NCBI GenBank assembly: GCA_001442925.1
Contig: LDXX01000006.1
Coordinates: forward strand, 248,001-312,000
DNA length: 64,000 nucleotides
Direction of reading: 5' to 3'
DNA from: Candidatus Kryptonium thompsonii
GTDB lineage: Bacteria > Bacteroidota > Ignavibacteria > Kryptoniales > Kryptoniaceae
The first letter of the stretch is position 1. Each line of letters starts with the position of its first letter. The notes under the pieces are model-generated. The model did no database searches. It saw nothing but the letters and a program-made list of their open reading frames with translations, and was not told the DNA's origin. Made by a program: the position numbers and the translations under genes. Of the stretch, positions 1,101 through 47,713 are shown piece by piece.

Positions 1101-1116
1101 TGCAAATATCGTGCCA
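1101..1116 (-). promoter_or_regulatory. Sigma-54 (RpoN) promoter, perfect consensus
   Basis: On the minus strand the sequence reads TGGCACG-ATAT-TTGCA, matching the -24/-12 consensus TGGCACG-N4-TTGCW at every fixed position, with the required GG-N10-GC spacing. No minus-strand protein gene follows, so the product is predicted to be the small RNA ending at 938. Confidence 0.75.
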
Positions 1117-3445: not shown

Positions 3446-4414
3446 TTAAATTTTGATAGTTAAACCTATTTGATGTAATGAGGCGATTTTACCAAGCGAT
3501 ATCAGGGAATAATCGAATCTATAGTTTTGAATTTTTAAGCCAATTCCAAATGAGAAGCCAGTTAAATCAAGCGCAGGGGTGATTTTCATCTCCCTTCTTC
3601 TTTCATTATTGTATCCGAACCTAAAATCGATATTTTCCGAAATGTTAAATTCACCGCCGATTGTAAAGTTTTTAAATTTATCTTGAATTTTTTGCGTTGG
3701 TTCGTTTATTTTGCTTAAGCCAATGTTCAGCAGAAGTGGCAGGTGTTCGAGTTTTTTGGAAATGGCGAATTTGACTTCAAATGGTAGATTTTCTTTAAGT
3801 GAGATGTAGCTGTTAAGCTGGGTTCCGATGTTGTTTAATGTAAGTGAGATATTTAGATTTTTTTCTTCGATGACATACATCCCGCCGATATCGATCGCAA
3901 CCGCAATTGATCGGGCGCCAGCAATTGATGAATAAATTAATTTAGAACTTATGCCGTATTTTAATCTTTCATATTCCCTTGAAAATCCGCCTATGATTGC
4001 AATTTCGCCAGCTGAAAATGAACCAAGTTGGTTCCCGTAACGATCCGTTTGGTTAAAGTTGCCATAGTTTATGTAAATAAATCCAATTCCAATGTTTCCC
4101 AAATTTTTTAAGTTTAATGTGTAAACACCGTAACCGAGATTTATATCAATGAGATGTTTAAAAAAACCAACGCTCGCATACGAATTTTTTAGTGTGGATA
4201 AACCCGCTGGATTATAAAACAAAAGTGTTGGGTCATCAACCATAGCAATGAAATTTCCCCCAAGAGCAGAGGCTCTGGGACTTACATCAAGTCGTAGAAA
4301 TTCATAAGTCGAGTTTCCACCTGCAATTAAAAGCGAAAAGTTTAAAATTATCAGGATCAAAGTATATCTAATCACGGCGATTTCAAGTTTATTTTGTCTC
4401 TTGAAAGATAGCAA
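3446..4414 (-). CDS. PorQ/PorV-like outer membrane beta-barrel protein
   Basis: The segment after the signal peptide (YEFLRLDVSPRASALGGN, then DDPTLLFYNPAGLS) is the N-terminal signature of the PorV/PorQ/UPF0164 barrels, some of which serve type IX secretion. The length (up to 322 residues) is nearer PorQ than PorV. The rest alternates as barrel strands. The longest frame starts at a TTG (4414); a GTG at 4375 would begin directly at the hydrophobic signal segment (IRYTLILIILNFSLLIAGG) and is equally possible, and neither has a good ribosome binding site. No other type IX components are in the window. Confidence 0.75.
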   Translation of the reverse strand: MLSFKRQNKLEIAVIRYTLILIILNFSLLIAGGNSTYEFLRLDVSPRASALGGNFIAMVDDPTLLFYNPAGLSTLKNSYASVGFFKHLIDINLGYGVYTLNLKNLGNIGIGFIYINYGNFNQTDRYGNQLGSFSAGEIAIIGGFSREYERLKYGISSKLIYSSIAGARSIAVAIDIGGMYVIEEKNLNISLTLNNIGTQLNSYISLKENLPFEVKFAISKKLEHLPLLLNIGLSKINEPTQKIQDKFKNFTIGGEFNISENIDFRFGYNNERRREMKITPALDLTGFSFGIGLKIQNYRFDYSLISLGKIASLHQIGLTIKI

Positions 4415-40106: not shown

Positions 40107-40406
40107 TCATTTCGAGGCGCATAAATAAACTACTGGTTCATCTCCTTCAACTCTTGCCCAGTGAATTGTTCCAGCTGGAAGATCGAGCCTATCCCCAGGA
40201 CCGAGAACAAATTCTTCATTGTTAACCCCATATCTCATTTTACCGCTCACAACCCAACGAACTTCATCGAAAGCATGGGAATGATTGCCATAGTAAGTTC
40301 CTGGTTCATCCATCCAGATGTAAGGTGTCATCCCTTCTGAGCGAAGTATATTCTTGAGTTCTTCAACATCTGGTTTATATGACTTATCCCAACGCGTTAA
40401 TTTCAT
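40107..40406 (-). CDS. Small cupin-domain protein
   Basis: 99 residues. The cupin motif 1 (GNHSHAFDEVRWVVSG) and motif 2 (GPGDRLDLPAGTIHWARV) supply His/Glu metal ligands. Function and substrate unknown. It is the last gene of a minus-strand cluster, 23 nt after the FecR-like gene, and abuts csrA tail to tail. Confidence 0.85.
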   Translation of the reverse strand: MKLTRWDKSYKPDVEELKNILRSEGMTPYIWMDEPGTYYGNHSHAFDEVRWVVSGKMRYGVNNEEFVLGPGDRLDLPAGTIHWARVEGDEPVVYLCASK

Positions 40407-40429
40407 AATTGAATCAGTTTTTGTGTATT

Positions 40430-41149
40430 TTACCGTTTTTCCCTTAAAGATGCAAGTTTTAGTTTAAGGTTTTGAATTTTTCTTTCAATTTTAGAGTTTA
40501 AATTTGGATCTCTCGATGTCAAAATTATTTTGTTTAGCTCTGAAATTGCTTCACCGTAGAGTTCAAGTTTTTCAAGCGATGTGGCAATTATCATTTTCAG
40601 TTCAATGTCATCCTTTAACTCATCGAATCTTGACATTAAATCTTTAGCCCTTATCGATGCAGTTTCGTAAAATCCGTTTTCAAAAAGGGCTTTTACACCA
40701 CTTGCCCAAAATTTAGCTGAATTCCAACCCGCCTTCAAACCTGTTTTTTCTTTTTCTATGTCAGCGCCGTAAATTCCAGTTGATCTTGCATTTGGTTTAT
40801 CCTTTTTCATCTCTGGAATTGCCTTCATCTCTTCAAAAGCAAGTTGAAGCAAGAGTTCTTCTTTTGATAATCGTCTTAAATCAGAAATGTTAATAATTAA
40901 GCTTCCATTCGATTTAAAGAATGTTTTAGCCCCTTCAATTTCAATGTATGAGTTTTTGTCCAAAAAAATTGTGTCGGTGGGGCGAAGTGTATCTCCAACT
41001 GAAAGTTTTTCCCATACTTCCCGTGCGCCGTGTCTCACCTGTGCTGTTCCATTTAACTTCTTTACTTTGTAAGTGTAGTTTTCACTTGACACAGAGTGCG
41101 AGATGAATGAAAGTATGAGAAGCGATAAAATCAAAATTTTTCGGATCAT
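40430..41149 (-). CDS. Exported FecR-domain protein with helical C-terminus
   Basis: 239 residues from ATG 41149, with GGAG 8 nt upstream; a TTG at 41161 is less likely. Signal peptide (IRKILILSLLILSFISHSVS). Residues ~30-105 resemble the FecR fold (VKKLNGTAQVRHGAREVWEKL, SVGDTLRPTDTIFLDKNSYI). The rest is helical, TPR-like (SLEKLELYGEAISELNKIIL). FecR-like domains commonly accompany CHASE2 proteins, and a CHASE2 regulator is encoded a few genes upstream. Overlap with the preceding gene's frame is minimal. Confidence 0.7.
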   Translation of the reverse strand: MIRKILILSLLILSFISHSVSSENYTYKVKKLNGTAQVRHGAREVWEKLSVGDTLRPTDTIFLDKNSYIEIEGAKTFFKSNGSLIINISDLRRLSKEELLLQLAFEEMKAIPEMKKDKPNARSTGIYGADIEKEKTGLKAGWNSAKFWASGVKALFENGFYETASIRAKDLMSRFDELKDDIELKMIIATSLEKLELYGEAISELNKIILTSRDPNLNSKIERKIQNLKLKLASLREKR

Positions 41150-41164
41150 TTTAGACTCCAAACT

Positions 41165-43147
41165 TTATTTTTCGATGAAAACAATTTTAGCCTTTCCTTT
41201 GGTATGTCCAAGATTAACTTCAAAGTCGTTGAAAAACTGTTCAGCTCCCGTTTCCCACGCTTCGTCAAATCCTTTGTGAACGAGCGTTGTTTCAACGGGG
41301 ATCCATGCGGTTTCAGTGCCACTTTCATTTTTTAGAATGATATATTTTTTCTCGTTGCTCGTTATAGCCTGAGCAAATTTTTTATCGATTTCAGTGTCAA
41401 ATATGATGTAAACATGTGATTCGTTAATTTTTCTTAAGCCTTTCACATCAACAAAAGCAACTTTGATTCCAATTGAACCAAGCAAAGAAGCATACAAAAT
41501 TGCAAGATCATCGCAGTCACCTGTGCGAAGTTTCAATGTTTCTTCGGGAAATTGAACTTTATCTATGCTTAAACTCGGATCACTTACATAGATTATATGT
41601 TTTGAAAGTTCGTCGAATATAAATTTCGCTTGATAGAATTTTCTCAACGCTGGATCTATCTTTTCGAGTGTGTCTTTATGTTCCAAAATTACTATTCTAG
41701 CAAATGAAGAAATTTCTGGGGAATCAAATTTTAGGAAAGATTTTAAGTCTTCAACATTTCCATTCCAATCATTTCGACCACGCAGAAAGATTTTGAACTT
41801 TTTAACTTCATCGGGGATGTCGCTCGTTGATTTAACATTTAACAAAGCGTCTATTTTAATTGGCTCATTATTTTCTGGATTAACCGTCCCAAGTGATATT
41901 GAAATTGGTATTGTTTTTGTCTCACGGGGTTTTATTTCAAATTCGTTTGGCTCAGCTTCGATGTCGAGGGGAAAAGAAAGTTTAAAATCGATCTTTGCGT
42001 TTAAAACTTTATCAGATGTGTTTTCAATCTCAACCGAACCGATATTTCTTTTTTCAAAGTCGCTCAGCATGTGTGGAAAAATTTCATCTTCAATCCTGAG
42101 GCTCTTAACTCTCAAGCTTTTTTCATACCACCTACTCATATCAACTGAAATTGAAAATGTAACTTCATCCCTAGTGAATTTTTCGAACTCGGGATTTTTC
42201 ACAAGCGTTTCAAAAAATTCATCTTGCGTTAATTTACCGTCTTTCCAAACATTTGATGTATTTTTAAAGTAAGCAAGGTCGAACTGAAATAGTCCACTTC
42301 TAAATCCGACCCCAGTTGAGAAACCACCGATTTTTCCTTTCTCTGAAAACAGACCGCTTCTTAAAAATAAATTTTTAATCGGTTGAACTTCAAACCCAGT
42401 GCGAAACTCTCCAATGGACGAAACTTCAAACCCAGATTTTAAAATTTTAAAATCTAACCCTGCGGATGCTTTGATTTTAAACTTATCTTCAAATTCAAAA
42501 TTTTTAAATTGTTCTGGAAATCTTCCAAACCCGAGCGATAAATTTTCAAACAATAGAGCAAGTGACATTTTTGGGGTAACTTCATAAAGCAATGAGATTT
42601 TTGAGTTAAGGTTAGAAGATTGATATTGCGATGTTTCAAGGCTTACTTGTGGGAGTGAATCCGTTGGTTGAATTTTGTAGCCTGTTTCGACGAGATTTTG
42701 AGAGATGTATTGGACTGATGAACCCAATGAAATTTTATTTGAAAGTTTTAAGGCGTATGTCAAGGTATAATTTGAAGAATAAGTTATTTTGCGTTGGAAT
42801 TCAGCCCTTAAGGTTGAAGTCCCGATATTTATCGTCACAGTTGATGGAAAGACAAATTCAATGCTTGAACCTGGCGAATAAATAAAACCGAGACTTTGTG
42901 TTTCTGTAAGTCTTTTTGCTATTCCGATCGAGTGCATCTTAGTACCTGAATAAGTTTTGTAATAACCTGTCAATCCTATGTTCCAATCGTAAATTCTCAT
43001 CAAACCTGCCGGATTCACCGTTGATGATAAAGCAGAGTTCACAAATGTCGAAAAACCGGCGACGGCGGTTGCCTGTGGCGATGTTAAATTTTGTGCCACA
43101 GCCAGATTGAGCGCTGTAAAAAGTAAAACGAGAGGGCGCAGTTTCAT
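41165..43147 (-). CDS. Outer-membrane barrel-like protein fused to a transglutaminase-like domain
   Basis: 660 residues. Signal peptide (KLRPLVLLFTALNLAVA), then a PorV/UPF0164-like beta-barrel (~20-300) with SSTVNPAGLMRIYDWNIGL. A middle region (~330-440) looks like an immunoglobulin-type domain (NEFEIKPRETKTIPISISL). The C-terminus (~470-640) is transglutaminase-like: LRTGDCDDLAILYASLLGS supplies Cys and Asp, and ESHVYIIFD the His. It could be a surface-active peptidase or cross-linker, or an inactive binding fold. I know no named protein with this architecture. It overlaps the upstream lipoprotein gene by 4 nt. Confidence 0.7.
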   Translation of the reverse strand: MKLRPLVLLFTALNLAVAQNLTSPQATAVAGFSTFVNSALSSTVNPAGLMRIYDWNIGLTGYYKTYSGTKMHSIGIAKRLTETQSLGFIYSPGSSIEFVFPSTVTINIGTSTLRAEFQRKITYSSNYTLTYALKLSNKISLGSSVQYISQNLVETGYKIQPTDSLPQVSLETSQYQSSNLNSKISLLYEVTPKMSLALLFENLSLGFGRFPEQFKNFEFEDKFKIKASAGLDFKILKSGFEVSSIGEFRTGFEVQPIKNLFLRSGLFSEKGKIGGFSTGVGFRSGLFQFDLAYFKNTSNVWKDGKLTQDEFFETLVKNPEFEKFTRDEVTFSISVDMSRWYEKSLRVKSLRIEDEIFPHMLSDFEKRNIGSVEIENTSDKVLNAKIDFKLSFPLDIEAEPNEFEIKPRETKTIPISISLGTVNPENNEPIKIDALLNVKSTSDIPDEVKKFKIFLRGRNDWNGNVEDLKSFLKFDSPEISSFARIVILEHKDTLEKIDPALRKFYQAKFIFDELSKHIIYVSDPSLSIDKVQFPEETLKLRTGDCDDLAILYASLLGSIGIKVAFVDVKGLRKINESHVYIIFDTEIDKKFAQAITSNEKKYIILKNESGTETAWIPVETTLVHKGFDEAWETGAEQFFNDFEVNLGHTKGKAKIVFIEK

Positions 43148-44034
43148 CTCAATTTAACTTTAAAATAAAGTGTTGATGACACAAACCCAGTAACATTTCC
43201 TTGATAGTCAGGAATACTTATGCTTCTTTGATATTTTTGAACTATGCTAAATATAAGATAATTTTGCTTGTATTCATCCGGTATAAGCTTTAAAATGTTC
43301 GGACCAATCTGAATTTTTTGGGTATTTAAGTTTTTAAATTTTAGCATCATAATCGGTTTCATCGCGAATTCTCCTTCGTCTGGCAAAGGTGTATTTACGA
43401 CTATGTCCAAGGAGTCAGCTTTTAACTTAAGTTTAAACTTCAAGTTCTCGCCGTCATATTCTGGCAGGTTTTCCAAGTCTTTTTTGTCGGGTGTGTCTAA
43501 ATCGAAAGAGTATTCTAAGCCTGATTTGTTGACAATTTTAAATTTATGCTTTGCTGAATGTTTGAATTCGAAATTCGTTGTTTTAAGTTTATATTCCATG
43601 CCGTAGATTGAATCCATTCGCCCATGGTGGCCCTGCGATGGGATTCTCATTTTTCTAAATGACTTTTCAAGCTTTACATTTTCAAGGTAGATATCGCCGA
43701 TATCTAATCCTCTTCTTTCACGCCAGCGACCCATATCTATAGGTGGTGAATTAACATCGCGGAAAAGCGCATACGCGACGGTTGTATCATATCTACTACC
43801 CGATTCGGAAATAAATTGGGAATAACTTAATACAATTAAACCCATCGGATTCATCATTTCAGAGGTTAGAATGCCCGTTTGTGCTGAGTTGATAAACTCG
43901 ATAACTGGCTCTGTTTCGTCAAGATAGTTAACCTCGACGTTCAATTTTCCATCTTCATCAGGCGGTATTATCAGTGAATTTTTACCACATCCAAATAATG
44001 CGAGAATAATTATTATGTAAAAAACTTTTTTCAT
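43144..44034 (-). CDS. Hypothetical lipoprotein
   Basis: 296 residues from ATG 44034 (TTG 44043 also in frame). Signal with lipobox KKVFYIIIILALFGCGKN. The mature protein is beta-rich and polar and I do not recognise a domain. It starts a cluster of four genes with the barrel-transglutaminase, FecR-like and cupin genes (4-nt overlap with the first). A terminator lies between it and the upstream DUF4382-like gene, so it may rely on readthrough or on a promoter in the 44-nt gap. Confidence 0.7.
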   Translation of the reverse strand: MKKVFYIIIILALFGCGKNSLIIPPDEDGKLNVEVNYLDETEPVIEFINSAQTGILTSEMMNPMGLIVLSYSQFISESGSRYDTTVAYALFRDVNSPPIDMGRWRERRGLDIGDIYLENVKLEKSFRKMRIPSQGHHGRMDSIYGMEYKLKTTNFEFKHSAKHKFKIVNKSGLEYSFDLDTPDKKDLENLPEYDGENLKFKLKLKADSLDIVVNTPLPDEGEFAMKPIMMLKFKNLNTQKIQIGPNILKLIPDEYKQNYLIFSIVQKYQRSISIPDYQGNVTGFVSSTLYFKVKLR

Positions 44035-44077: not shown

Positions 44078-44114
44078 AAAAAAAGTGCAAGCCCGGATGA
44101 CCCGAGCTTGCACT
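44078..44114 (-). terminator. Intrinsic terminator after the DUF4382-like lipoprotein gene
   Basis: AGTGCAAGC (44084-44092) pairs with GCTTGCACT (44106-44114), with an inner CGG/CCG pairing; in the minus direction seven T follow. It makes the sigma-54-driven lipoprotein gene monocistronic, at least in part. Confidence 0.85.
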
Positions 44115-44136
44115 CAGTGAACTGCGCCCTCAGCGC

Positions 44137-44925
44137 TCAATCTGGCCTGCCATCTCTATTTCTATCCTTGCCACCACGCGCCTTGTTTTTCAGTGAAGCA
44201 ACGATGTTACCTATTATCTTACCCTGATCCCCAGGATCACTTGGGTCAAGTATCCTTCCTGTGTTCAAGTCTATGAACCATGAAGTCAAATCAAAGACGA
44301 GAACATACGGGATATTTTTGTCTGTTTCAGTAATTGTAAAGTCTCCCTTGATCTTGAACTCAGTATTAACTCTTCCAGTTGTGAAAACAAAGTCTTTCCA
44401 AGCACCATTCTGATAAATTTGACCTTTAACATAAATGCTCTTGCCAAGGAATGAGTCTGGAACTGCTGGATTTACCTGTAAGTCATAAGGAACAATAGCA
44501 TGAACCTTAAACTTGATACCATTGTAATTTCCAGGTGGCAAGCTATCAACGGCAATCCGAGTTGGTTCATTGTTTCTTAATGTCACGAAGAACGGTCCTT
44601 TAAATCTTATTGTTGGATCATCATCCATTCTTCTCATCTTCTCACGCATCATGTTCATATCATGGTCATCCCAGAGAGAATCTTCTTTAACAGTATCAAT
44701 ATTTTGTTTAAATTGAATCCAGCGGAGAACGAGTATAGCAAAATCAACTTTTATTGAGTCAACTTGGCCAACTGCTTTTGCAAAAGTTATATTTCCCGAT
44801 GTTTCTCCTACTGCTTTGAGTTCAATTGGGACTGCGGTTGTTTCTGATGGTTCTGTCCCTTTTGTGCAACCGCTGATTATAATTGCCATTGAAATTAAGC
44901 CGAGGAGAAATAATTTTTTCAACAT
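44137..44925 (-). CDS. DUF4382-like lipoprotein under a sigma-54 promoter
   Basis: 262 residues from ATG 44925, preceded by TTTGAGGA; the longer frame to 45081 is rejected since this ATG opens a lipoprotein signal (KKLFLLGLISMAIIISGCTKG). The middle (VDSLPPGNYNGIKFKV) resembles DUF4382 proteins, which are secreted beta-rich proteins of unknown function. The C-terminus GGKDRNRDGRPD fits a calcium-binding DxNxDGxxD loop as in dockerin/thrombospondin repeats. A perfect sigma-54 promoter lies upstream and its neighbour is a sigma-54 activator. Confidence 0.75.
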   Translation of the reverse strand: MLKKLFLLGLISMAIIISGCTKGTEPSETTAVPIELKAVGETSGNITFAKAVGQVDSIKVDFAILVLRWIQFKQNIDTVKEDSLWDDHDMNMMREKMRRMDDDPTIRFKGPFFVTLRNNEPTRIAVDSLPPGNYNGIKFKVHAIVPYDLQVNPAVPDSFLGKSIYVKGQIYQNGAWKDFVFTTGRVNTEFKIKGDFTITETDKNIPYVLVFDLTSWFIDLNTGRILDPSDPGDQGKIIGNIVASLKNKARGGKDRNRDGRPD

Positions 44926-44978: not shown

Positions 44979-44994
44979 TGCAATTATCGTGCCA
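44979..44994 (-). promoter_or_regulatory. Sigma-54 promoter, perfect consensus
   Basis: On the minus strand TGGCACG-ATAA-TTGCA matches the -24/-12 consensus fully. The predicted start near 44968 gives a 43-nt leader for the lipoprotein gene. It lies between the end of the CHASE2-sigma-54 activator gene and its likely target. It shares TGGCACGATA with the promoter at 1101-1116. Confidence 0.8.
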
Positions 44995-45064
44995 GAAAAA
45001 TTTATTGTCTTTCAATGTAGAGTTTTGAGGTAAAATGCTGGGATTCATCCCCAAATTGCTGGGT

Positions 45065-47713
45065 TTAAGGGTTCCAGTCATTTTGATTTAAGTTTTCAAG
45101 GGTAAGTTCGCCCCTATGAAATTTTAAGGCAAACTCCTCAAGGTAAAAATGATACCTTGCTGGAAGGTTTTTGTATTTTAACTTAATGATGGATTTAATT
45201 TCGTTTTCAGATTTGCATTGGTTGATGATCTCTATAAAGTTTTGGATGTACTCGATAAGCTTTTTCTTTGCCTTTTCTGCGGCTTCAACGTCATTTTCAG
45301 CCAGCTTCATAGATGTTTTAATGAGATCGAATTCACACTCGTATAGATTTTTAAAGCATATTCCTCGCAGATATTCACTGATCGTTCCTCGGTTTAAGCC
45401 AAGTTCATTTGCAGTTTCAGAGATCGCGCTGTGTGAGAATTTTTTCTCTCTAAGTAAGTTTAAAATTTTCTCTTCGATGTCTATTTTTCCCTTCACTGAT
45501 TTTGCAATCTCCTCCGGTAAATCTTTAAGTTGAATCAAGTTTCTTCCGCTGGACTTTGCAAATATGATTGCTCTTTTTATAGCATTCTCAAGCTGGCGGA
45601 CATTTCCCGGCCATTCATAGTTTAAGAATGCATTCATCACAGCATGCGAAGCTTTCATATCGCTGGATTTGAATTTTTTCAGGAAGTGTTCAACAAGAAA
45701 TGGAATGTCTTCTTTTCTTTCTCGTAGAGGTGGGACATGGATTCGGACGACGTTTAACCTATAATAAAGATCTTCTCTGAATTTCCCTTCTTTCACGGCT
45801 TTTTCAATATCGCGATTTGTTGCGGCAATGATTCGCAAGTCAACTTTTAAAATTTCTGTTCCACCAACTCTATTAAATTCGCCCGATTGGATGAATCTTA
45901 GAATTTTTGCCTGAAATGATTCGGGCGTTTCTGCAATTTCATCAAGGAATATTGTTCCGCCGTCGGCAATTTCAAATAAGCCCTTTTTTTGTTGCGTTGC
46001 CCCCGTGAAAGCCCCTTTTTCATAACCGAAAAGCTCGCTTTCAAGCAATGTTTCTGGGATAGCGGAACAATTTATCGCTATAAATTTTTTATCCTTCCTT
46101 GGGCTTAATTTATGTATTGCCATTGCGATTAACTCTTTGCCAACTCCGTTTTCACCTGTTATCAAAACTGGTACATCCGATGGAGCAACTTTCTTTACAG
46201 TTGAAATGACTTTTTCCATTTTACTGCCTTTTGAGTAAACGATGCCCTCGAATTCGACTTTTTCCGCTTTTTCAACCTCGGAGAATTCTGAAAGGTCCTC
46301 AAACTTTGATGTCAATTCCTTTATCTCGTCGTAAGTTTTTTCAAGATTTGAGAGTGCCACCGTTTTCTCATCAGCGACTTTTAAATTTTCAATCTCTCTT
46401 TGGAGTTCAATTATTTTCATCTCCTTTTCCTTGATCATATCTTCAATTCTCTTTTTCTCATTTTCAAGCTCAATCATTTTTCTTCTTTCAGACTCAAAAA
46501 CATAAACCATCCCTAAAAATATCGATAACAAAGCAGTAAGGACAGGATATATTGAAATCGAAATTCCGAGTGTAAACAAGAAAGTAATAAGCGCAAGGGA
46601 GAGCAAAAATGTTAACGCAGGAAAAATCCCAAACCTTAAAACATTTGAGAGATTCCGCAATGAGATCAAATGTAGAATCAATACAGATAAGACAAAAGAT
46701 AAAACGAAGTTGAGAATGGGTCCAGTTTTAGTTATAAATTTTTTTTGAATTATGGTATTTAACGACATTATGTGAACCCCAGTGGCAGGAAACTTATCTT
46801 GAAATGGGCTTTTAACCGTTTGTCCGAGAACATCGCTGAGGAATCCAACGAACACAATTTTATTTTTAAATTCCCCCATGTTAATCTCTGGTTCAAGACC
46901 AGATTTAAACGCATCGTAAGATTTTATGAAATCTAAAACCGAATACATTTTTAAAGCCCCTGTTCCACCGCTATAGTTTATCAGTATCTTTCCGTTTTTT
47001 GTTGGAATTTCGATTCTGCCAAGTTGAATCTTATCTTCAAAAATTTTAACTGAATCCCTTGGGATTTCGTAATAAACTCGTGCAAGTTCGAGCGAGAGCG
47101 ATGGGAGATATTGATTTTTTCCAAATTGAACAATCAAGGGAATCTCTTCAGGGAAGTCACGCTGGATATAATTGAGATGCCCTAACCCTGCACAACTTTG
47201 AAGAAGTTCATCAAATGGCGCAAGAAAATTCGAGCCTTTGAGAAAATTTGAGTTTTTATCGTTCCCAGTTATCAAAAATTTTTTTAGATTTTTTGATATT
47301 TGGGTTGTATCTTCAGCTGATTTTCCAAAACTTGTAAAACTTCCACCCAGATAAACCCTTTTTGATTTTTCCGTAGTCAAAACCAGAAGATTGTCTCGCT
47401 CTGGATAATCGGGATTTTTATCGAGCAAGAGTATATCAAATGCGATCGCTTTAACATCCAATTCTGTAAGTAGCTCGATGAGGAGTGCGTAATAGCTTCG
47501 TTTTAAAGGGTATCCGCCAAGTGAGTGGATTGCGGTATCGTCAATATATAGAAATACAAGTGATGTGTCAACCTGCTGTTGTCCACGGAGTTTAAACTTC
47601 AGTTGGTTAAAAAACGAATTTAGATTTTCAAGGTAGGGAATTTTTGCTATTTCAAGCGTTAGAACGAGAAACGAGATTAAAAAACCAATGATCAGCCCGT
47701 GCTTATTTTTCAT
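45065..47713 (-). CDS. CHASE2 sensor fused to a sigma-54-dependent transcriptional activator
   Basis: 882 residues. N-terminal membrane segment (~7-25), an extracytoplasmic CHASE2 domain (~30-320; VFLYIDDTAIHSLGGYPLKR, AIAFDILLLD), three hydrophobic segments (~328-408), a coiled coil (~410-470) and an AAA+ sigma-54 domain (~490-720). Walker A is GENGVGKEL (~516), the sigma-54 contact loop GAFTGA is intact (~567) and Walker B is GGTIFLDEI. An HTH (ISETANELGLNRGTISEYLR) is followed by a ~100-residue C-terminal extension. This is a one-component design: sensor and activator in one membrane protein with no kinase. Confidence 0.92.
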   Translation of the reverse strand: MKNKHGLIIGFLISFLVLTLEIAKIPYLENLNSFFNQLKFKLRGQQQVDTSLVFLYIDDTAIHSLGGYPLKRSYYALLIELLTELDVKAIAFDILLLDKNPDYPERDNLLVLTTEKSKRVYLGGSFTSFGKSAEDTTQISKNLKKFLITGNDKNSNFLKGSNFLAPFDELLQSCAGLGHLNYIQRDFPEEIPLIVQFGKNQYLPSLSLELARVYYEIPRDSVKIFEDKIQLGRIEIPTKNGKILINYSGGTGALKMYSVLDFIKSYDAFKSGLEPEINMGEFKNKIVFVGFLSDVLGQTVKSPFQDKFPATGVHIMSLNTIIQKKFITKTGPILNFVLSFVLSVLILHLISLRNLSNVLRFGIFPALTFLLSLALITFLFTLGISISIYPVLTALLSIFLGMVYVFESERRKMIELENEKKRIEDMIKEKEMKIIELQREIENLKVADEKTVALSNLEKTYDEIKELTSKFEDLSEFSEVEKAEKVEFEGIVYSKGSKMEKVISTVKKVAPSDVPVLITGENGVGKELIAMAIHKLSPRKDKKFIAINCSAIPETLLESELFGYEKGAFTGATQQKKGLFEIADGGTIFLDEIAETPESFQAKILRFIQSGEFNRVGGTEILKVDLRIIAATNRDIEKAVKEGKFREDLYYRLNVVRIHVPPLRERKEDIPFLVEHFLKKFKSSDMKASHAVMNAFLNYEWPGNVRQLENAIKRAIIFAKSSGRNLIQLKDLPEEIAKSVKGKIDIEEKILNLLREKKFSHSAISETANELGLNRGTISEYLRGICFKNLYECEFDLIKTSMKLAENDVEAAEKAKKKLIEYIQNFIEIINQCKSENEIKSIIKLKYKNLPARYHFYLEEFALKFHRGELTLENLNQNDWNP

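Follow-up and report, generated by a model that had tools for sequence, protein, structure and literature searches.

The question raised by one gene cluster of the hot-spring bacterium Candidatus Kryptonium thompsonii (Bacteroidota; Ignavibacteria) is what a protein combining an outer-membrane barrel, an immunoglobulin-like (Ig) domain, and a transglutaminase-fold (TG) domain might be doing next to a FecR-like exported protein and downstream of a CHASE2 regulator. The cluster is in a window of 64,000 nucleotides (nt), by which is meant the whole stretch of DNA analyzed (NCBI GenBank assembly GCA_001442925.1, contig LDXX01000006.1, positions 248,001 to 312,000 of the forward strand); coordinates below refer to this window unless a locus number precedes them. 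A preliminary description of positions 40107–44034, made from the sequence alone, had proposed an envelope cluster of four genes (a lipoprotein, the barrel–TG fusion, the FecR-like protein, and a cupin), possibly serving in sensing or in surface protein processing. The present analysis favors sensing: at a probability of roughly 0.55, judged from sequence comparison and structure prediction, the cluster is a trans-envelope signaling module with its own sigma-54 transcription output. What argues for a sensing device is the combination of a dedicated CHASE2–sigma-54 activator, a conserved promoter with accompanying half-sites, and a recurring link of Ig–TG and FecR or FecR-like proteins to CHASE2.

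From 47713 down to 40107, the minus strand carries six genes: the CHASE2–sigma-54 activator (882 amino acids (aa); 45065..47713), exported lipoprotein 1 (“gene 1”; 44137..44925), lipoprotein 2 (296 aa, of no known family; 43144..44034), the 660-aa barrel–Ig–TG protein (41165..43147, its full length kept in relatives), the FecR-like exported protein (239 aa; 40430..41149), and the cupin (40107..40406; Pfam Cupin_2, 51.8 bits). The conserved gene set runs in this order from the activator to the FecR-like protein. The four genes described earlier are where they were said to be, overlapping or nearly abutting: the 660-aa gene shares 4 nt with lipoprotein 2 and is separated from the FecR-like gene by 15 nt, with another 23 nt between the latter and the cupin. 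The borders first drawn around them hold for lipoprotein 2, the barrel–TG gene, and the FecR-like gene, but not for the cupin, which is present in four loci, every one from the window's genus, and is a genus-level neighbor rather than a core member. At the other end, the unit extends to 47713, with lipoprotein 1, a promoter, and candidate regulator-binding sites inside it.

The CHASE2 regulator noted upstream is real, and proves to be a sigma-54 activator, matching Pfam CHASE2 at 103.6 bits (cut-off 26.3) and Sigma54_activat at 242 bits. It has an N-terminal transmembrane (TM) segment, a periplasmic CHASE2 domain, further TM segments, an AAA+ domain with GAFTGA and Walker motifs, and a helix-turn-helix; hydropathy peaks at residues 7–25, 333–351, and 366–384 place the CHASE2 domain between TM segments. 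The genome also contains rpoN. Upstream of the activator in one related locus (L066:1104-3037) are genes for a DUF4292 lipoprotein and an M23 peptidase, with open reading frames (ORFs) of similar size in L031, L065, L069, and L070.

On the minus strand, 3' of the activator stop codon, are two direct half-sites, CCCAGCAATTT and CCCAGCATTTT (45032..45063; 21 nt start to start, with equivalents in relatives), which are candidate activator-binding (enhancer) sites. These are followed by a sigma-54 promoter, TGGCACGATAATTGCA (44979..44994), with zero mismatches to TGGCAC-N5-TTGCW and a position conserved in relatives, and then by gene 1. This arrangement was sought in 78 loci with 3.1 kb of upstream sequence, with the antisense strand and 30 shuffles as controls. 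With a strict -12 pattern, the window alone has a perfect promoter ahead of gene 1; a relaxed -12 pattern found the others. The promoter pattern was relaxed, and the half-site pattern widened, after part of the same gaps had been read, and the controls used the relaxed promoter pattern. On this basis 49 of the 78 loci have the promoter pattern (antisense 1; shuffle mean 3.3), 60 have two half-sites with a spacing of 21 or 22 nt (antisense 4; shuffle mean 2.5), and 42 have both elements in order (antisense 0; none in 30 shuffles). Half-site spacing is not evenly distributed: 48 loci have 21 nt and 14 have 22 nt, with zero to six loci at each other spacing from 12 to 40 nt. The window's own half-site pair occurs a single time in its genome, which speaks against a wider regulon.

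The half-sites vary with lineage (CCAGCA, CCCGCA, CCGGCA, CAGGCA, CATGCA), and the recognition helix of the activator varies alongside. The -12 element and the GAFTGA loop also change together: the -12 TT is found in 30 of 31 loci with a GxFTGA loop and in one of 14 with GxFT[ND]A (Fisher p 2.6e-9, which ignores relatedness), these counts, like those for helix and half-site, being inflated by related sequences. The GxFT[ND]A loop belongs to a single lineage (L036, L075, L079-L081, L083, L150, L156, L158, L164, L167, L171, L172, and L174). A matching change of loop and -12 element is as expected if this promoter is the activator's target, although both could also have been passed on by common descent.

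Between gene 1 and lipoprotein 2 there is a terminator-like hairpin of 15 pairs followed by a T run (44083..44115, minus strand). Of 76 loci, 38 have such a hairpin at this place (2 on the antisense strand, 0.4 in shuffles), so that the sigma-54 promoter probably serves gene 1 above all. The leader between promoter and gene 1 has, by eye, a self-complementary CCCGC...GCGGG in L065, L066, L069, L070, and L072; an Rfam scan of seven loci for a riboswitch in the 5' leader returned only tRNAs. A second perfect sigma-54 promoter match in the window (1101-1116, minus strand) may be due to chance, the genes to its left being on the other strand.

The 660-aa protein was described at first as a barrel, an Ig-like segment, and a TG-like domain, an architecture that structure prediction bears out. 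An AlphaFold model built from 58 homologs has a mean predicted local distance difference test (pLDDT) score of 86.7. In structure comparison, its barrel (residues 20-340; 42128..43090, minus strand, as for all its parts) matches CymD (Z 26.4), FadL (Z 26.2), and the type IX secretion system (T9SS) protein PorV (8gl6_F, Z 25.8); a fold test against FadL, TodX, and PorV gave Z 24-26. The barrel is therefore referred to as FadL/PorV-type, although the curated cut-off of NCBIfam PorV_fam (NF033709) is not reached (40.8 vs. 90 bits, E 2e-10). A protein encoded at 3446-4414 (minus strand) resembles, by eye, a further outer-membrane protein of PorV/PorQ type. The Ig-like domain (residues 342-457; 41777..42124) resembles domain 3 of HAP2 (Z 12.2) and the FixG-related structure 2r39 (Z 11.1). 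The last 206 residues were folded separately, since Foldseek matches to the whole protein are mostly to barrels, and gave a pLDDT of 92.9; the top structural matches of this TG domain (residues 460-657; 41177..41770) are all TG-fold proteins, namely 3kd4 (Z 10.2), PNGase (Z 10.1), transglutaminase 3 (TG3; Z 9.7), and LapG (Z 8.5). Pfam Transglut_core matches the 660-aa protein at 24.8 bits (cut-off 23) and 53 of the 58 homologs (E 0.01). The closest named relatives of the 660-aa protein come from a Candidatus Kryptonia metagenome-assembled genome (84% identity), Chrysopegis kryptomonas (60%), and Thermokryptus (56%).

The Cys and His motifs picked out earlier in the TG domain correspond to Cys545 (41513-41515) and His578 (41414-41416), both invariant in 58 of 58 aligned rows. 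Glu619 (41291-41293), present in 57 of 58, was assigned by eye to the third catalytic position and, to judge from its W-x-x-x-E motif, seems to be the third catalytic residue. In transglutaminases this position is Asp. It is also Asp in LapG, according to the available text of PMC4359373.

These features bear on two other explanations for the locus. One is that the barrel–Ig–TG protein is an output rather than a sensor, acting in the manner of the protease LapG to trim an outer-membrane or surface protein (lipoprotein 1, for example) or to set it free, with the CHASE2–sigma-54 activator only setting the timing. The best match to the TG domain in a profile search among solved structures is indeed LapG (4u65_E, E 6.6e-4), although no LapG-family Pfam model is among the families matched by the 58 homologs. 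The invariant Cys and His would suit a protease, and the genes all sit 3' of the sigma-54 promoter; the terminator-like hairpin, however, parts the TG gene from that promoter, and the company kept by Ig–TG proteins elsewhere, described below, is a better fit to a sensor. This explanation appears unlikely, if by no means far-fetched. The other is that the TG domain cross-links lipoproteins with one another or with the cell wall, so as to mend or stiffen the envelope under sigma-54 control. The transglutaminase fold (by Pfam, and by the match to TG3) and the presence of two lipoproteins in the same locus speak for it, but the closest sequence relatives with solved structures are proteases and the third catalytic position seems to be Glu and not Asp, so that cross-linking is considered improbable.

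FadL/PorV-type barrels have both termini in the periplasm, and because of this the Ig–TG part of the 660-aa protein should sit there and not at the cell surface. The earlier proposal of surface protein processing is not supported by this topology.

The FecR-like label is the weaker one. Profile–profile comparison (hhalign) of the family with true FecR proteins gives a probability of 38% and E 3.3e-4, over only 46 columns, but Pfam FecR (PF04773) matches none of 40 family members at E 0.01. By hydropathy, the protein has a signal peptide only, with no inner-membrane anchor seen. In lipoprotein 2 the lipobox Cys16 is invariant in 36 aligned homologs, and a crude lipobox pattern matched 47 of 87 lipoprotein 2 ORFs, whose start sites are uncertain. 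Gene 1 is weakly DUF4382-like (E 0.17, below the cut-off), and its family differs among loci: 68 of 80 have one lipoprotein family and six have the window's.

Conservation of the cluster was surveyed in 99 distinct loci, made up of 38 picked stretches (mostly with long flanks, and including the window), from which the search profiles were built, and the best 80 of 312 matches, with duplicates removed. Gene order proved to be conserved, as had been proposed for checking; with the TG fold also predicted, neither of the outcomes that were to refute the preliminary description came about. In all 96 loci with room for one, the TG gene is followed directly by a FecR-like gene; lipoprotein 2 is directly upstream of the barrel–TG gene in 81 of 91; and a CHASE2–sigma-54 gene is on the same strand no more than 4.5 kb upstream in 46 of the 72 loci with enough sequence. 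Of the 391 genomes of the class, 140 have a relative of the 660-aa protein, partial and paralog matches included, as do 7 of 7 in the genus. A broader figure of 183 of 395 takes in matches to the barrel or the TG domain alone and does not count the system. In other classes of the phylum, loci L219-L224 have the CHASE2–sigma-54, TG, and FecR-like genes in direct succession, two of these activators having been checked by Pfam. There is little to indicate a mobile element: no plasmid match was found, and viral contigs gave just two weak matches, to the TG domain only.

These counts also bear on the possibility that these are simply envelope genes which point the same way and share a sigma-54 promoter, but do not work together. 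The differing identity of gene 1 among lineages is consistent with this, as is the fact that the activator can be unlinked. It has difficulty, however, with a FecR-like gene adjoining the TG gene without exception, a gene order kept across classes, and CHASE2 genes that are recurrently beside Ig–TG proteins, and is very improbable.

This recurrence can be seen within a single genome. The window's own has three CHASE2 genes, all beside exported Ig–TG, FecR, or FecR-like proteins, and two of them with cyclase outputs. The second is a cyclase just 3' of an 852-aa Ig–TG–TPR protein, a paralog with 33% identity to the 660-aa protein over residues 349-640. The third, also a cyclase (G000:C8 104610-110790; L231:4611-10791), shares its operon with the gene for a 794-aa exported protein, which has no Pfam or NCBIfam family match, and with that for a FecR protein, the only Pfam-FecR gene in the genome; a 360-aa exported protein is encoded there as well. 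Across genomes, 15 of 19 loci with longer Ig–TG proteins also have a CHASE2 gene nearby (12 of 16 in one set, 3 of 3 in another). Ig–TG proteins are thus partners of CHASE2 receptors, and the output is of two kinds. The suggestion that CHASE2 and FecR neighbors recur is thereby upheld, and broadened to include Ig–TG proteins; their pairing with CHASE2 cyclases is the company referred to above as fitting a sensor better than a protease.

The Ig–TG pair also aligns with the initial ~300 positions of the model NCBIfam NF058533, the anti-phage protein ProA (852-aa paralog, E 1.9e-18; 660-aa protein, E 1e-4), and by this sequence comparison is a module shared with ProA. Three longer Ig–TG proteins (L088:7167-9725, L041:4896-9437, and L226:4731-9482) match the same 300 positions at E 1.9e-18 to 7e-9. 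As to a defense system, PADLOC gave no match for three window proteins or the paralogs tried, and the weak ProA match is limited to the Ig–TG part.

Several of the observations weigh against a dedicated signaling module. The activator is not linked in the usual way in 26 of the 72 loci, and in L217 and L218 there is no CHASE2 gene near the TG and FecR-like genes; four of the 19 longer Ig–TG proteins are not beside CHASE2; the failure of the FecR-like family against the Pfam model, and the effect of relatedness on the covariation counts, have been mentioned. The strict promoter pattern is missing in 29 of 78 loci, many of which show, by eye, TGGCA with an altered -12 part. In the sister family, none of 13 genomes has a match to the 660-aa protein, and the module must therefore be dispensable. 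With regard to the missing activators, seven genomes without one in the usual place were considered: in six, a gene matching well is present at another place or nearby on the opposite strand, one of these convergent beside the operon, and the seventh genome is only 68% complete.

Sequence and comparison show the gene order, the predicted folds, the conserved active-site residues, and the promoter with its half-sites; the signal direction, TG substrate, and biological role of the module are inferred, in the following scheme. The barrel would sense some state at the outer membrane; the Ig–TG domain and the FecR-like protein would relay this state across the periplasm, through cleavage or binding, to CHASE2; and the CHASE2–sigma-54 activator, on receiving it, would turn on the sigma-54 promoter. 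Because of the hairpin, lipoprotein 1 would be made in the largest amount and the sensor genes would be expressed less. That lipoprotein would then be an exchangeable output, with lipoprotein 2, the barrel–Ig–TG protein, the FecR-like protein, and CHASE2 as the constant sensor. Stated more generally, and with chances put a little short of even, this may be an undescribed class of trans-envelope signaling, in which a CHASE2–sigma-54 activator receives its input from a barrel with a Cys-protease-like domain in the periplasm and from a FecR-like relay, proteolysis or ligand state at the outer membrane directly sets transcription of a dedicated lipoprotein, and the Ig–TG/CHASE2 pairing is reused with cyclases.

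If the signaling reading is correct, sigma-54 gains a membrane-bound, one-component input; sigma-54 has already been tied to the cell exterior (PMC3162934). The factors recognized by CHASE2 are given as not known in what is available of PMC5192318, and with likely partners, a promoter, and candidate binding sites fixed by comparison, the question of what CHASE2 senses becomes a testable one. The matching change in the GAFTGA loop and -12 element is an experiment made by nature on the reading of promoters by their activators. In the open-access literature searched, no description was found combining CHASE2 with a sigma-54 enhancer-binding protein, or FecR with a transglutaminase and the outer membrane; for CHASE2 with a transglutaminase only other systems were found, and not the barrel–Ig–TG/CHASE2–sigma-54 arrangement.

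Known systems resemble the cluster in one part or another. The FecA-FecR-FecI system is a case of trans-envelope signaling, with an outer-membrane barrel, FecR, and an inner transcription switch in the form of an extracytoplasmic function (ECF) sigma factor. The scheme, covered in part by PMC5498481, has its counterparts here in the barrel, the FecR-like exported protein, and an inner switch, but the window's barrel is FadL/PorV-type and not a TonB receptor, its switch is a sigma-54 activator and not an ECF sigma factor, and its FecR-like protein has a signal peptide without an inner-membrane anchor. In Sinorhizobium meliloti, the outer-membrane beta-barrel NsrA acts upstream of the inner-membrane CHASE2 adenylate cyclases CyaD1, CyaD2, and CyaK (PMC13001267). 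This too pairs an outer-membrane barrel with inner-membrane CHASE2 receptors, a likeness of layout; the NsrA output is cyclic AMP (cAMP) and Clr instead of a sigma-54 activator, and the available text mentions no TG domain. CHASE2 receptors encoded with exported FecR-domain proteins are found in the CHASE2 cyclase/FecR-domain protein/TPR clusters of Campylobacterota (PMC9239204) and in the BiofilmReg operon of Burkholderiales, where the receptor is a CHASE2 kinase and its partner a LysM-FecR protein (PMC5192318). The outputs of these are cyclase or two-component, no barrel–TG protein is mentioned in the text available for either, and the window's FecR-like protein differs in failing the Pfam FecR model.

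Single proteins can be compared as well. PorV/PorQ and FadL share the barrel fold, with a weak PorV_fam match, but the window's protein falls under the family cut-off and has the extra Ig–TG part. ProA shares the Ig–TG pair, but all matches are far below the curated cut-off of 1500 bits, the rest of its 1903-position model is unmatched, and PADLOC gave no match for the proteins tried. LapG (BTLCP, of the Lap system) is, like the window's TG domain, a TG-fold Cys/His enzyme, probably periplasmic, and is its best sequence match among solved structures. It differs in that the window's domain is fused to a barrel and an Ig domain and has Glu in place of Asp, and in that LapG is controlled by LapD and cyclic di-GMP (c-di-GMP) whereas the window's protein would be controlled by CHASE2–sigma-54; no LapD-type c-di-GMP receptor was recognized among the neighbors of the locus, the rest of the genome not having been searched. 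Precedents exist for the parts; what is new is the sigma-54 output of a CHASE2 module, and the fusion of a LapG-like domain to an outer-membrane barrel.

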